Assembly: GCA_003134785.1 (NCBI GenBank)
Contig: PLCN01000020.1
Coordinates: forward strand, 62,001-126,000
Reading direction: 5' to 3'
Length of the DNA: 64,000 nucleotides
Source: Spartobacteria bacterium
GTDB lineage: Bacteria; Verrucomicrobiota; Verrucomicrobiia; Chthoniobacterales; UBA10450
Made by a program: the position numbers and the translations under genes. Numbering within the stretch: the stretch's first letter is position 1; the number at the start of each line of letters is the position of its first letter. This document shows positions 50,436 through 56,035 of this stretch, one piece after another. The notes under the pieces are model-generated. The model saw only the letters and a list, made by a program, of their open reading frames with translations, had not been told where the DNA came from and did no database searches.

Positions 50436-50978
50436 TTATTCCCAGAGGTAGGAAAGGTTTTGCGCCACGATCCGCCCGTTCTCGACGAGCAGGCAGCGCC
50501 AGGCGATGACGCGGCCGTCGTTGAAATAATCATCACCGAGGATGGCGAACTCGGTTTTGGTATTCCCCTTCACGTTCGTGTAGGAAATCTCGCGCGCCTG
50601 GACAAAGGAGCGGAGCTTCTCCTGGCGATACTCCAGTCGCACAGTCACATTCGCCGGCCGCTTTACGCGCCAGAAGAAATCGAAATAATTCCCATAGCGC
50701 TGGCGCCTATCGGCCTCCGTAATCGCGCCATACATTCGGTAACCGCGTTCGAAATTAATGGACGCTTCGGCGATGCCCGGGTTGGTGGAAGTGAACATGT
50801 TCTGACGGGTCTTTAGGGGAGCGGGGTCCAGCAAGAAAAGCTTGGTTTTTCTGAACTGAAAATCACTGCTCAGAGCCAGCGGCAAGGGCGTCACTTTGGA
50901 TAACACCTTGGGAGCTTCTGCGGCCAGAAGGTTGCCGACCGAAGCCGTCGCTAGAAGAAATAGCATCACCAATTTCAT
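50436..50978 (-). CDS. Secreted protein of unknown function
   Basis: 180 residues with signal peptide (LVMLFLLATASVGNLLAA). The rest is beta-rich with aromatic Tyr/Phe segments (YGNYFDFFWRVK, LGDDYFNDGRVIAW). The last strand YLWE is hydrophobic. Longer frames to 51458 run through the divergent region and were rejected. Family not recognised. It is divergent from the exonuclease-ligase gene across repeat B2. Confidence 0.78.
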   Translation of the reverse strand: MKLVMLFLLATASVGNLLAAEAPKVLSKVTPLPLALSSDFQFRKTKLFLLDPAPLKTRQNMFTSTNPGIAEASINFERGYRMYGAITEADRRQRYGNYFDFFWRVKRPANVTVRLEYRQEKLRSFVQAREISYTNVKGNTKTEFAILGDDYFNDGRVIAWRCLLVENGRIVAQNLSYLWE

Positions 50979-51046
50979 CGGAGTGATGGAAAAGGAATCG
51001 CAACCCGGTGTCAATGCAACCGCGAGCTGCGGACACGCGCGCTCTT

Positions 51047-51124
51047 CTGTAGCCGCCGCCCTATTGGCGGCGCAAGAGAAGGCGACGTCCTCCCACGGCG
51101 CTTCGCAGAGCGAAGCCGCTACAG
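51047..51124. repeat. Palindromic intergenic repeat, family B copy 2
   Basis: CTGTAGCCGCCGCCCTATTG left and AGAGCGAAGCCGCTACAG right. The left arm has diverged more than in copy 1. It fills the divergent region before the exonuclease-ligase GTG. Confidence 0.75.
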
Positions 51125-51179
51125 GGCTATAGAATGGAATGCCGGTTTCGCCCGCGGCGTTTCGCAGGTAAAATTTTCC

Positions 51180-53897
51180 GTGATCGAAGTTCGTTACGAC
51201 CGCGGTGTCTACCTGTCTAACGAGGATATCTGGCTGGACCCATGGGACCGGAAGCCGTTTGCGTTTGTCTCTCATGCCCACAGCGATCACATCGCGCCGC
51301 ATGACGAGATCATCGTCTCGGAGCGCACCGCGCGGCTGATGCAGGCGCGTTTGCCCGGGAAACGGAACGAGCATGTAGTGGCGTTCGGCGAGCGCACGAC
51401 CATTCGCGGTCTCGACCTGATGCTCTTGCCCGCGGGTCACATCTTCGGTTCGGCGCAATTCTTCCTCGAGACGAAAAGCGGATCACTGCTCTACACCGGC
51501 GATTTTAAATTGCGGCCCGGACGATCCGCCGAACCGGCAGAGTGGCGGCAGGCGGACACGCTGATCATGGAAACGACATATGGCTTGCCCCGTTATCGTT
51601 TGCCGCCCACCGACGAAGTCATCGGGCAGATTGTAGCCTTTTGCCGCGACGCGCTCGAGTCTGGCGCTGTCCCCGTGCTGCTGGGCTATTCGTTAGGCAA
51701 GGCACAGGAAATCCTTTGCTCGCTCGCCGGCGCCGGCCTCAAACCGATGCTGCATGGGTCGGTCCATCGCATGACGCGGATCTACGAGCAGTTTGGACAA
51801 TCGTTTTGCGAATACGAACGCTACAACGCGAATGAGGTCGCGGGCAAAGTTCTCATCTGTCCGCCGAACGCGAATCGTTCGCGCATGCTCGAAAAAATCC
51901 GGGACAAACGCGTGGCCGTGATCAGCGGCTGGGCGGTCGAGCCGAATGCGATCTACCGCTACCAGGTCGACGCCGCTTTTCCGCTTTCCGATCACGCCGA
52001 TTATGACGATCTTTTGCGCTACGTTGAACTGGTGCGGCCGCGGCGGGTCCTCACGCTGCACGGATTCGCCGCGGAGTTTGCGCGCGATCTGCGCGACCGC
52101 GGAATCGAAGCGTGGGCCCTAAGCGATCAGAACCAACTCGAATTGACGCTCGGCACTTTCCGTGCGCCCCCCGTCGCCGTGTCGAACCGACAATCGTCCG
52201 CAGTCGCTTCGGAGTTTTGTGATTTCGCGAACGTGGGTGAGGCGATCGCGGCCACGTCAGCCAAGCTCGAAAAAATCCGGCTGCTCGCGGAATACCTGCG
52301 AAGCCTTGATCCGGCGAAACTCTCCATCGCGGCGATTTATTTCACCGGAAAACCGTTTCCGCAAAATGATCTGCGAACGCTTCAGGCTGGCTGGGCCGTG
52401 ATTCATCGGGCGCTGATTGGTGCCGCAAAGCTGAGCGAGGCGGAGTTTCGCCGCATCGCCAGCTCGCACGGTGACGCGGGCAAGACCGCGTTGGCAGCGC
52501 TCGAGAATCGCACCGCGTCGGAACCATTCGCGCTGAGTGAATCTCGAACATTCTTCGAGTCACTCCACAAAGCTCGGGGTCCCCTGGCGAAGACTGAACT
52601 TCTTCAAGCGCGTCTCGCCAAGATATCGGCGCGTGAAGGCCAATATGTGATCAAGATTTTGACGGGCGATCTGCGGATCGGTTTGCGCGAAGGGCTCGTG
52701 GAAGAAGCGATCGCTTCGGCGTTCGATGCTCCGCTCGATGACGTGAAGGAAGCAAACATGCTTCTCGGTGACATCGGTGAAACAGCCGTGCTCGCCTTTA
52801 AAGGCGAACTGCAACGCGCGGAACTTTCCCTGTTCCGCCCGATCAAATGCATGCTGGCGAGTCCGGAGCCGACGGCGGAAGCGATCTGGGCGCGGTTCGC
52901 AAAAAAGCCGGCGAATCATGAAAGCGCTGTACCGGTTGCGACAGTTTACGTCGAAGACAAATTCGACGGCATTCGCGCGCAGCTTCATCGCGGCGCGGGA
53001 CGCGTGGAAATATTTTCACGGGATCTGGGCCGCATGACCGATCAGTTCAGCGAGCTGGCTGACCAGGCGGAAAAGTTCAACGACGAGCTGATTCTCGACG
53101 GCGAGATCATTGCGTTCGAACACGGCAAGAAGCTCACGTTCTTCGATCTGCAAAAGCGGCTCGGCCGAAAAAATGAAGGAGCCGATTTGTTTGCTACAGC
53201 ATCAGCAGATGTGCCGGTCGTTTTCGTCGCGTTCGATTTGCTTTGGAAGAATGGGCAATCGTTCTTGCGGAAGCCGCTGCGGGAACGGCGAGAATCTTTG
53301 CGGGGCCTCGACCTGCCGCCACAATTTCAACTCGCGGAGATTTATCCGGCGCTTTCGGCGGAGGAGATTGAGGAATCATTTCGGCTTTCACGCCGGCGCC
53401 TGAATGAAGGACTGATGGTGAAAGATCCTGAAAGCCTTTATTCTCCGGGTCGGCGCGGAATGTTCTGGTTCAAACTCAAGAAAGAACTGGCGACACTCGA
53501 CGTGGTGGTGGTCGCGGCAGAGCTGGGCCACGGCAAGCGCAATCACGTCTTGAGCGATTACACCTTCGCGTTGCGCGACGAAACGACCGGCCAGTTGGCG
53601 ACAATCGGAAAGGCCTACAGTGGTTTGACGGACGTCGAAATCGCCGAGCTGACCGAGCATTTCAAGAAACAGACAATCAAGAACCGCGGTCGGTATCGCG
53701 AAGTGAAACCGGACATCATCCTAGAGATCGCATTCGATTCGGTCCAGCCCAGCACGCGACATGAGAGCGGGTTGGCTCTGCGCTTTCCCCGCATCAAAGC
53801 GATTCGGCGCGACAAGGGCGTGGATGCGATCGACACACTGGCTTACGCGCGCACGCTGGTGAAGCGACCCGAGCCGACGGCCGAGCTACCGCGCTAA
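51180..53897 (+). CDS. Metallo-beta-lactamase exonuclease fused to ATP-dependent DNA ligase
   Basis: 905 residues, GTG start. Residues 1-330 are an MBL-fold/beta-CASP ligase-associated exonuclease with zinc motif SHAHSDH (H32, H34, D36, H37) and VISGWAVEP. From about 350 on it is an LigB/LigC-type ATP-dependent ligase: nucleotidyltransferase Lys K594 in EDKFDGIRA, LDGEIIAF, and a C-terminal OB fold with ELGHGKRN. In most bacteria the two are separate genes beside lhr and pdeM; here neither neighbour is present. A role in DNA repair is inferred. Confidence 0.92.
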   Translation: MIEVRYDRGVYLSNEDIWLDPWDRKPFAFVSHAHSDHIAPHDEIIVSERTARLMQARLPGKRNEHVVAFGERTTIRGLDLMLLPAGHIFGSAQFFLETKSGSLLYTGDFKLRPGRSAEPAEWRQADTLIMETTYGLPRYRLPPTDEVIGQIVAFCRDALESGAVPVLLGYSLGKAQEILCSLAGAGLKPMLHGSVHRMTRIYEQFGQSFCEYERYNANEVAGKVLICPPNANRSRMLEKIRDKRVAVISGWAVEPNAIYRYQVDAAFPLSDHADYDDLLRYVELVRPRRVLTLHGFAAEFARDLRDRGIEAWALSDQNQLELTLGTFRAPPVAVSNRQSSAVASEFCDFANVGEAIAATSAKLEKIRLLAEYLRSLDPAKLSIAAIYFTGKPFPQNDLRTLQAGWAVIHRALIGAAKLSEAEFRRIASSHGDAGKTALAALENRTASEPFALSESRTFFESLHKARGPLAKTELLQARLAKISAREGQYVIKILTGDLRIGLREGLVEEAIASAFDAPLDDVKEANMLLGDIGETAVLAFKGELQRAELSLFRPIKCMLASPEPTAEAIWARFAKKPANHESAVPVATVYVEDKFDGIRAQLHRGAGRVEIFSRDLGRMTDQFSELADQAEKFNDELILDGEIIAFEHGKKLTFFDLQKRLGRKNEGADLFATASADVPVVFVAFDLLWKNGQSFLRKPLRERRESLRGLDLPPQFQLAEIYPALSAEEIEESFRLSRRRLNEGLMVKDPESLYSPGRRGMFWFKLKKELATLDVVVVAAELGHGKRNHVLSDYTFALRDETTGQLATIGKAYSGLTDVEIAELTEHFKKQTIKNRGRYREVKPDIILEIAFDSVQPSTRHESGLALRFPRIKAIRRDKGVDAIDTLAYARTLVKRPEPTAELPR

Positions 53898-53913: not shown

Positions 53914-55722
53914 TTACGGCGCCGGCGATGGAGTTGGCGTCGGCTTCTCGCCTTCGACTTCGCCCGGGCGTCTGGGTTTTCGGTCGTTAGGTTTCGGATT
54001 GGGTGCGGCAGGAGATGGACTCGTTGTGGCCGGAACGTCGGTCGTAGGTGGTATTGCCGGAGGCGGCGGAGTGCTGCGAGGAACAAGAGGCGGTCTCGTC
54101 GGTTTGACTGCGGGATCAGACGGTCCAGCAGTAGCGCTCGGGCGTGGCGATGCCGGAGGGTGAAACCGCCGGAGTTGAGCGGCGCGATCGGGCGTGACGG
54201 AAGGGGTGCTAACCGAGGGCGTCATTGGAGCTGCGACGCTGGCCTGGGGCAAAGCCGGTGTCGCCAGCGCCGGCGTGACGGCAGGCGATGGTCGTGGCGA
54301 ACGAGTAGTCACAGGTCTGCGCGGAGTGACGGACGGGGAAACCGTTGCCGTGGATAGCGTGGGACTAGGTGCCGCAGTCGGTCGCACGGTTTGCAATGGT
54401 GTGGAAGTTGAAATGGGCGCCGCAGTCAGTCGCGCGGTTTGCGATGGCGCGGGAGTGGACGCCGGAGCTCGGGTCATTCGCGCGGTTGGCGAAGGTGTCG
54501 CAGATGATGATGATGATGTAGTGACCGCGACGGAAGCCACCGGCGTCGAACTCACGGTTACGCTTGTCGGTCTCACGAATCTCTTCGAAGGCGCATCTGG
54601 CGGAGGCGTCACTTCTGCTTTCATCTTTGTCCGCGCGCGTTCGGAGGCTGCGCGATCCGTTTCCGCAGTCCAGGTCTTCTCGACCGTGGCCTCGGTTAAA
54701 GTCTCTTTTACTCTTTGCGGCCGATCGATCCCCGGCACCCTGGTAATGACGGGCGCGGACATTTCGAGAATCTCGCCCCGCACGATTGGCTTCGAGGTGT
54801 CGCCGGTCATTTCGACCTGGCGCTGGAGGCGATAACGTTCAATCGGCTGCTTACTCCGCGAGCGCATTTCCTCGTAGTTCGGTCCCTGATTTACGACGGT
54901 CGTATTGCTGTAAGTAATGTTGGTCACATTCGTCGTATCGATCACGATCGTGACGTTGCGTTCTACCGGCACGATCGAAGTCTGAACGTGCTGCGCTCCA
55001 AATTCATTGCCCGGAACGAAGGCATATTGGTCGGGGCCGATGTCATAATAGTTGTCCGCCCAATTGTGGATGCCGTGTTTGCGATCGAAGCGTGCTTCGG
55101 GCGGCAGCGGCGCCCAGCCGACATAATCCTTGCTCGTTCTCCACGAAACCCAGGCTGGCGCCCATTCCTCGCCGGGCACCCAAACCCAGCCGACGCGACG
55201 CAATCGGACCCATCGCCCGTAGTGATAAGTGGCCCAGCCGAAAGGCTCTTCGGAAACCCACGTCCAACCGGCGTCCGTATAAACCCAGTGACCGTCAGTG
55301 TACGGCCTCCAGTCGCGCGATTCCGCCTCGCGCGGTTGCCAGACGTAACCGTAATCCGAAGTCTCGCGCCACTCGCCGTAAGGTTCGAGCGTACGATAAA
55401 AGGTCCCATACGCAGCCGTCGAACGCGGTTCGGGAGTTTCCGCAATGTTCGTATTGTCGCTCCAGACCGTTTCGCTCTTCAGCGGCGTCGATTCGGGAAC
55501 TGTTGTCGCAGCGGCAGCTTCCTTGTCCGCCACTGCTTTTTCACGGGCCGCGAGATCCGCCTGCTGTTGCGCGAGACGCCGCTGTTCCTGCGTTTGATGT
55601 TCGGCGGCAAGACGCTCTTGCACCTGCTTCTCGACTTCCGCTTTTTTCTCTTCCTCGGACAGTTGCTTCTGGCAGGAAACAAGAACCGCGAGCGCGGCGA
55701 CGATGGTGCAAAACTTTTTCAT
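53914..55722 (-). CDS. Large DUF6600-like lipoprotein with Pro/Ser/Thr-rich tail
   Basis: 602 residues. Lipobox LVSC follows a short signal; next is a Glu/Gln/Lys coiled coil (about 25-75), then a Trp/Tyr-rich domain with repeats such as YGYVWQPRE, GHWVYTDAGWTWVSEEP and YGRWVRLRRVGWVWVPG. The last 250 residues are Pro/Ser/Thr/Ala with TP and SPT units, likely extended and cell-wall-spanning. ATG 55722 is followed at once by the signal. Function unknown; surface structural protein is plausible. Confidence 0.85.
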   Translation of the reverse strand: MKKFCTIVAALAVLVSCQKQLSEEEKKAEVEKQVQERLAAEHQTQEQRRLAQQQADLAAREKAVADKEAAAATTVPESTPLKSETVWSDNTNIAETPEPRSTAAYGTFYRTLEPYGEWRETSDYGYVWQPREAESRDWRPYTDGHWVYTDAGWTWVSEEPFGWATYHYGRWVRLRRVGWVWVPGEEWAPAWVSWRTSKDYVGWAPLPPEARFDRKHGIHNWADNYYDIGPDQYAFVPGNEFGAQHVQTSIVPVERNVTIVIDTTNVTNITYSNTTVVNQGPNYEEMRSRSKQPIERYRLQRQVEMTGDTSKPIVRGEILEMSAPVITRVPGIDRPQRVKETLTEATVEKTWTAETDRAASERARTKMKAEVTPPPDAPSKRFVRPTSVTVSSTPVASVAVTTSSSSSATPSPTARMTRAPASTPAPSQTARLTAAPISTSTPLQTVRPTAAPSPTLSTATVSPSVTPRRPVTTRSPRPSPAVTPALATPALPQASVAAPMTPSVSTPSVTPDRAAQLRRFHPPASPRPSATAGPSDPAVKPTRPPLVPRSTPPPPAIPPTTDVPATTSPSPAAPNPKPNDRKPRRPGEVEGEKPTPTPSPAP

Positions 55723-55801
55723 TGTGTGGTTAGACCGGGGTGGTTGTTGGTTATTCGATTGAAACAGCGGCACAGGCCGCATGCGCGATCGTCGAAATCG
55801 A

Positions 55802-56035
55802 TCAACGCCCGGCAGAAGGAGCCGCAGTGGGCGTGACAATTGATGCCGGGGTGATAATCACCTCTTCGATCTTATTGCGCCGAGCCTTCTGGATATTCGC
55901 GTATATCGCAACCAGCGCGAGCCCGATGAGGATCACAATCATCAGCCTCACGCCGGTTCGTGGGGCGCGAGATAAATCCGCGCCACTTTTCTGTTCCGTC
56001 GAGGGTTCCACTCCCCATCGTCCGCTGCCAGGCAC
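55802..56035 (-). CDS. Small single-pass membrane protein
   Basis: 77 residues with one membrane segment (LMIVILIGLALVAIYANIQ) at about 31-49 and a short Pro/Thr tail. Family unknown. It starts 15 bp after plsC and the start itself is uncertain. Confidence 0.55.
   Translation of the reverse strand: MPGSGRWGVEPSTEQKSGADLSRAPRTGVRLMIVILIGLALVAIYANIQKARRNKIEEVIITPASIVTPTAAPSAGR

Follow-up and report, generated by a model that had tools for sequence, protein, structure and literature searches.

The locus reported here is related to a described four-gene repair cluster composed of lhr-core, pdeM (MPE), exo and ligB, which corresponds to the protein families TIGR04120-04123 (PMC10140301). The pairing of Lhr with PdeM is already known, since 276 of 319 genomes were reported to have MPE close to bLhr (PMC8301817). 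According to PMC10140301, neither the damage that the pathway repairs nor the role of its nuclease module has been established. Fusions of the nuclease to LigB have been described as well: the same paper presents 13 such proteins from Antarctic Dry Valley metagenomes, and credits a further one, OTER_RS15935 of Opitutus terrae, to Ejaz and Shuman (2018). As reported there, the ligase half of a fused Dry Valley protein seals nicks in vitro, and its nuclease half is insoluble.

The gene studied here, from a soil-dwelling Spartobacteria bacterium, lies at positions 51180-53897 (plus strand) of the window, i.e. of the whole stretch of 64,000 nucleotides that was analysed. It starts with GTG and encodes, in one open frame, a protein of 905 amino acids in which a nuclease is N-terminal to a three-domain LigB-type ligase. 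Judging from the published descriptions, the O. terrae and Dry Valley proteins likewise begin with a metallo-nuclease of RMMBL type, followed in the same chain by a DNA_ligase_A_N/M/C ligase, and this kind of fusion is therefore already published (PMC10140301). The Dry Valley fusion genes with examined context are located away from lhr and the phosphoesterase gene, like the window gene, whereas the O. terrae fusion is in the lhr/phosphoesterase configuration (PMC10140301).

The window genome (G000; 4.39 Mb, 97% complete) shares homologues of all four proteins with the four-gene cluster, with scores below the curated cut-offs, but differs in that nuclease and ligase are one chain and that the genes are in three unlinked places. 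The fusion is on contig C24, an Lhr-Core homologue of 919 residues on contig C17 (match at 124732-127311), and a PdeM homologue of 275 residues on contig C11 (match at 172537-173124). For Lhr, TIGR04121 scored 650.7 bits (curated cut-off 850) and NF010338 scored higher, 740.7 (cut-off 849), with WH_Lhr and DEAD_assoc above the Pfam gathering score; PdeM scored 135.3 bits (cut-off 150). A sequence-only reading of the window had stated that neither lhr nor pdeM is adjacent to the fusion; this is correct but incomplete, as both occur elsewhere in the genome, and their absence from it is ruled out by the homologues on C17 and C11.

That exonuclease and ligase form one chain with all catalytic motifs present, as the same reading proposed, was borne out by domain matches to both halves and by a check of the individual residues. 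The N-terminal MBL/beta-CASP nuclease spans residues ~1-326 (51180-52157, plus strand), as judged from matches to TIGR04122 and RMMBL and, for a profile compared with PDB, to CPSF-73, aCPSF1, SNM1A and Apollo. It carries D20, H32/H34/D36/H37, H87, D108, E131, D271, H272 and H294. A variable linker, defined by alignment of the fused proteins, follows at residues ~327-345 (52158-52214, plus strand); measured over window residues 323-345, its length is 20-53 residues across 29 fused proteins. The C-terminal ATP-dependent ligase occupies residues 346-895 (52215-53864, plus strand) by Pfam, TIGR04120 and the solved chain 3gde, which is the best structural match for this half (E 2.2e-77). It carries K594, D596, G597, R599, R614, E642, E743, K765 and K767, of which K594-F-D-G597 (52959-52970, plus strand) forms the nucleotidyl motif that we take to be the one labelled KxDG.

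Pfam matches above the gathering score were RMMBL (268-312), DNA_ligase_A_N (346-512), DNA_ligase_A_M (586-767) and DNA_ligase_A_C (788-879), so that the three DNA_ligase_A domains and the catalytic lysine of a LigB-type ATP-dependent DNA ligase are all in place. The NCBIfam scores were lower than the curated ones for both halves. TIGR04122 (ligase-associated exonuclease) gave 238.8 bits over residues 7-315 against a cut-off of 325, which two nuclease-alone relatives also missed (198.3 and 216.8 bits), and TIGR04120 (cisplatin damage response ligase) gave 309.6 bits over residues 348-893 against a cut-off of 400, being slightly outscored by NF006701 and NF002868, both also below cut-off. An AlphaFold model based on the fusion alignment was poor (mean pLDDT 54.6, pTM 0.35). 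Of the 25 loci inspected, 21 start with GTG and four with ATG, and the first two residues, M1-I2, are invariant in 15 of 15 aligned fusions.

LigD, the ligase of non-homologous end joining (NHEJ), likewise combines an end-processing domain with an ATP ligase in one chain. Its end-processing domain is different from the window nuclease and presumably unrelated to it, and no LigD phosphoesterase or polymerase domain was matched in the fusion among the Pfam and NCBIfam matches listed. The window genome encodes a separate LigD-like ligase (L071:5761-7482, with no polymerase-domain match) and two Ku genes (C16:18317-19075 and C15:40925-41677), and NHEJ therefore seems to be provided separately. A further ATP ligase of 343 residues is encoded at L072:4882-5913.

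A genome scan gave 57 related loci in other Verrucomicrobia assemblies, some of which contribute two contigs; the titles are Chthoniobacterales, Spartobacteria, Udaeobacter or Verrucomicrobia. The whole fusion, from residue 1 to at least residue 886, is in one frame in 46 of them. Among the 11 incomplete loci, six carry a flag for truncation at a contig end, L043 and L059 are fragments at or near a contig end, and L034, L041 and L051 show a frame change. These three frame changes are what could be said in favour of an assembly or sequencing artefact as the source of the fusion, an explanation that is hardly credible considering the 46 complete loci, the gene order kept in several dozen of them, and the full-length fusions seen in five other families of the window organism's class. 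The sequence-only reading had named a frameshift or assembly join as what would undo its claim; such an event is ruled out by the 46 one-frame loci, mostly in the same neighbourhood. Confinement of the fusion to the window genome is likewise ruled out, by the 57 related loci and by the phylum survey described below.

Neighbouring genes were searched in 67 loci, i.e. the 57 above, the stretches of two relatives (apparently the records L056 and L038) and eight more distant fusions. Neighbours were STAS-like in 50 loci, plsC-like in 50, cmk-like in 47, grpE-like in 45, aroA-like in 45 and dnaJ-like in 42, and none of these six was found with any of the eight distant fusions; an rsbU-like gene (56 of 67) and the divergent gene (53 of 67) were also frequent, these counts including weak or antisense matches. 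All neighbour names except DUF6600 are a reading of the sequences by eye. The divergent gene (50436-51458, minus strand) is a hypothetical gene outside the system, with no Pfam match, whose listed frame overlaps the start of the fusion, so that its true start is probably further in. On the other side, also outside the system, a convergent gene (53914-55839, minus strand) matches Pfam DUF6600; it was found in 23 of the 67 loci (contig ends truncate some of these loci), and its protein has, by eye, a long Pro/Thr/Ser-rich tail. From about 45.7 to 59.4 kb of the window, the fusion is the sole plus-strand gene amid minus-strand neighbours, and it is therefore probably transcribed alone. Upstream alignments of 25 loci were inspected by eye for a shared regulatory motif; apart from the start region and a TGTCAAT block, which may belong to the divergent gene, nothing conserved was seen.

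The domain-architecture check in other Verrucomicrobiota proposed by the sequence-only reading was run on 288 genomes of the phylum; a few candidates were scored per genome, the architectures were sorted by frame, and the counts are those among the matches listed. In 29 genomes, the nuclease is joined to all or part of the ligase; the fusion of G085 spans two contig ends, and those of G223 and G215 have decayed ligases. In 21 other genomes, among the matches listed, the nuclease stands alone and ends where the linker would begin, and in G128 only a nuclease fragment of 104 residues was found; no match to the ligase half at E<=0.001 was present in these 22 genomes. Divergent nucleases of a separate type (~29-35% identity) occur in 14 genomes, 12 of them with a separate ligase, again among the matches listed. 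One of these genomes, G023, has two copies (L124:3559-4611 and L157:1983-3140). Residue 177 (window 51708-51710) marks the two branches cleanly: all 50 of the fused or alone nucleases have Glu there, and all 15 of the separate type have Arg.

No relatives were confirmed in viral contigs. A plasmid search returned 595 records, of which 59 cover 80% or more of the query, and the three inspected have two separate genes. On the Phyllobacterium (L158:3938-6607) and Sinorhizobium (L159:3968-6595) plasmids, 6 and 3 bases, respectively, lie between the nuclease gene and the ligase gene; in Haladaptatus (L160), the ligase gene comes first. In the two Alphaproteobacteria, the gene pairs have the same order and frame as the halves of the fusion, and their spacing is a short step from it.

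The two halves differ in how well they are kept. The metal-site and motif A-C residues of the nuclease are intact in 65 of 65 proteins; of the 29 fused proteins, 27 retain the ligase residues as far as D686 (G085, among the 27, being readable only to the contig end). Beyond D686, R838 is variable, and R871 is replaced by Cys in one protein. In G223, the catalytic K594 is replaced by Leu, R614 by Ala, E642 by Thr and K765 by Ser, and the frame stops before the OB domain; Pfam DNA_ligase_A_M is still detected, and the nuclease motif set is kept. In G215, only the N-terminal stretch of the ligase is left, as a sub-threshold DNA_ligase_A_N match, next to an intact nuclease. The presence of Lhr and PdeM in G215 despite its broken ligase counts against a simple order of loss.

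In family f9, a DUF3108 gene follows the slot of the nuclease or fusion, and a methylpurine-DNA glycosylase gene (PF02245) is nearby. Both accompany the fusion in all five loci that also have lhr and pdeM (G010, G018, G088, G099 and G143) and in three of the five fusion-only genomes (G045, G091 and G223), the stretches of G260 and G085 having neither. At the 12 nuclease-only loci of the family, DUF3108 is always present and the glycosylase is found within the stretch examined in nine; neither gene was found at the 10 nuclease-alone or fragment loci outside f9. This shared flank makes it seem that the cluster shrank where it stands. Over the family, the DUF3108 gene occurs in 20 genomes and the glycosylase in 17 (e.g. 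L112:3997-5538 and L142:1428-2947); the adjacency possibly reflects a link to alkylation repair, either functional or merely positional.

In a maximum-likelihood tree of the 65 nucleases, the 15 of the separate type (two from G023) split from the 50 fused or alone with support 100/100. Some nuclease-alone sequences fall within fused groups, G140 beside G085 and G260 (100/99) and G268 beside G277 (98/85), and the starred branches of the tree force at least four architecture changes. The AU test rejects one clade of the 21 alone sequences (p-AU 1.15e-6), and with it the idea that they are one separate lineage; it also rejects one clade of the 29 fused sequences (p-AU 4.31e-6). The halves therefore part company more than once. 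In the ligase tree, the 28 fused ligases are on one side of a 100/100 branch and the 12 separate ones on the other, which fits a single fusion but is not proof of it. One fusion followed by several losses of the ligase would be the simplest history on these trees, others being possible, and most architecture changes would then be ligase losses. It should be noted that in both trees the G223 row is long and compositionally unusual, and that the nuclease-alone groups f6 (six rows) and f14 (two rows) branch deep; their ancestors may never have been fused.

The search for the partners covered 77 selected genomes, of which 29 have the fusion, 22 the nuclease alone or a fragment of it, 14 the separate type and 12 none of these, using TIGR04121 at E<=1e-60 for Lhr and TIGR04123 at E<=1e-15 for PdeM, thresholds below the curated cut-offs. 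Among the fused genomes, both partners are present in 21 and both absent in eight. The nuclease-alone and fragment genomes have no PdeM (0/22) and a single Lhr (G271, 249 bits over 11-434 of 804); separate-type genomes have Lhr in five and PdeM in four of 14, and the last group has no PdeM (0/12) and one Lhr (G008, 462 bits). No PdeM was found in G047, whose contig ends 67 bases past the lhr match. Because only about half of the matches pass the curated cut-offs (14 of 28 genomes for Lhr, 13 of 25 for PdeM), and because the same thresholds give matches in control genomes (Lhr 6/14, PdeM 4/14), these proteins are homologues rather than certified equivalogs.

Over the 288 genomes, PdeM occurs in 25, each of them one of the 41 that have both nuclease and ligase genes (Fisher p 1.5e-25, a value that ignores kinship and counts G215 despite its broken ligase). 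When independent pairs on the tree were compared, PdeM and Lhr changed together in four of four pairs (p 0.125, not significant), and for ligase and PdeM about three of five pairs went the same way and about two showed no difference (sign test, p 0.25); with four and five pairs, such tests are too small ever to reach 0.05. Both partners accompany the fusion in 21 genomes: fusion, lhr and pdeM are together (within ~4 kb) in seven; in five, lhr and pdeM are next to each other and the fusion is at another place; and in nine, including the window genome, the three are on different contigs.

Our preferred reading, which we consider fairly probable, is that of a DNA-repair fusion in which a nuclease trimming 5'-phosphate ends is tethered to a nick-sealing ligase and is aided by the unlinked Lhr-Core and PdeM. 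A beta-CASP metallo-nuclease and a LigB-type ligase, encoded by separate adjacent genes in other bacteria, are here joined by a short linker. The nuclease half would bind a 5'-phosphorylated end and remove nucleotides (5' ends that are damaged or displaced), and the ligase tethered to it would seal the resulting nick in the same repair event, with assistance from the Lhr-Core helicase and PdeM; the nuclease would also have a job independent of the ligase. In favour of this reading are the domain matches over both halves, the conserved active-site residues, the co-occurrence with PdeM and Lhr, the grouping of the fused ligases, the closely spaced gene pairs of the two Alphaproteobacteria and the nick sealing by a Dry Valley ligase half; against it weigh the nuclease-alone genomes, the decayed ligases, the scores below the curated cut-offs and the lack of significance of co-change on the tree. 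The specificity is suggested by the 5'-phosphate pocket of Apollo, formed by Y182, K186, T257, S258, S274 and D275 (PMC8450094). By spacing and pattern, the equivalents here are Y170, K174, S/T249, G250, S270 and D271, all kept except that of S258; those of Y170, S270 and D271 are found in 65 of 65 nucleases, and that of K174 in 64. This pattern favours action on 5'-phosphorylated ends, which would also be what the ligase needs. The window nuclease thus shares with SNM1A, Apollo and Artemis the MBL/beta-CASP family, the S-D-H motif and the pocket pattern, but its motif C residue is His (as in 65 of 65 nucleases) where those enzymes have Val. As reported, most beta-CASP subfamilies have His at this position (PMC4678830), and Val marks the SNM1 DNA nucleases (PMC4678830, PMC7458816). 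The His, as in CPSF-73, could mean that the substrate is RNA or a 5' end that contains it, and that the fusion rids nicks of ribonucleotides or stubs of RNA before it seals them, and a 19-row profile favours aCPSF1 (98 bits) and CPSF-73 (96) over SNM1A (79) and Apollo (72). This is nevertheless unlikely: replacement of Val by His in SNM1A was reported to leave the preference between DNA and RNA unchanged (PMC4678830), the window sequence alone scores 51.7 bits with SNM1A, on par with the RNA enzymes (52.5 and 47.3), and the longest match, with single sequence and profile alike, is to Apollo. Moreover, the S-D-H motif and K174 are Apollo-like, unlike CPSF-73 (S-A-H and R), and NCBIfam names the family for DNA damage response. 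A ribonuclease-like nuclease half, making the fusion a one-chain enzyme of ribonucleotide excision and ligation whose nuclease-only relatives use another ligase, is an improbable variant of the same idea.

A trimming nuclease and a tethered ligase need not be functionally inseparable. Obligate channelling, in which each trimmed end is passed straight to the ligase, would agree with the finding that 27 of the 29 fused proteins have kept the ligase residues, with a linker of just 20-53 residues and with the 46 complete loci out of 57. It is hard to reconcile with the 21 genomes that have the nuclease alone, with the pseudo-ligase of G223 and the truncated ligase of G215, both next to an intact nuclease, and with the rejection of both one-clade constraints (p-AU 1.2e-6 and 4.3e-6, rounded), and we regard it as unlikely. 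From the nuclease-alone genomes and the two decayed ligases it follows that sealing in cis is unnecessary for retention of the nuclease. The physical partnership claimed by the sequence-only reading is thus real, this being a genuine fusion of both enzymes of the ligase cluster, while its further claim, that the fusion would channel trimming to sealing, is not supported as stated. Channelling may take place where both halves are intact. As far as can be judged from the genomes compared, the attached ligase appears dispensable and repeatedly lost, which suggests that the nuclease is the part that evolution keeps, and it is the likely core of the system.

What is new is the pattern across 288 genomes of the phylum, i.e. 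the co-occurrence of PdeM, the paired presence of Lhr and PdeM, the nuclease-alone genes and the decaying ligases. No literature on nuclease-only relatives or on ligase decay was noticed among the matches listed, which is weak evidence of its absence. The phylum offers natural variants with the fusion, Lhr and PdeM, with the fusion but neither partner, with a dead or truncated ligase, and with the nuclease only. These variants suggest an order of dispensability, in which the nuclease is kept longest and Lhr and PdeM are present or absent as a pair, and they name the component to be assayed first. They also call for caution, as a gene fusion need not imply obligate coupling.
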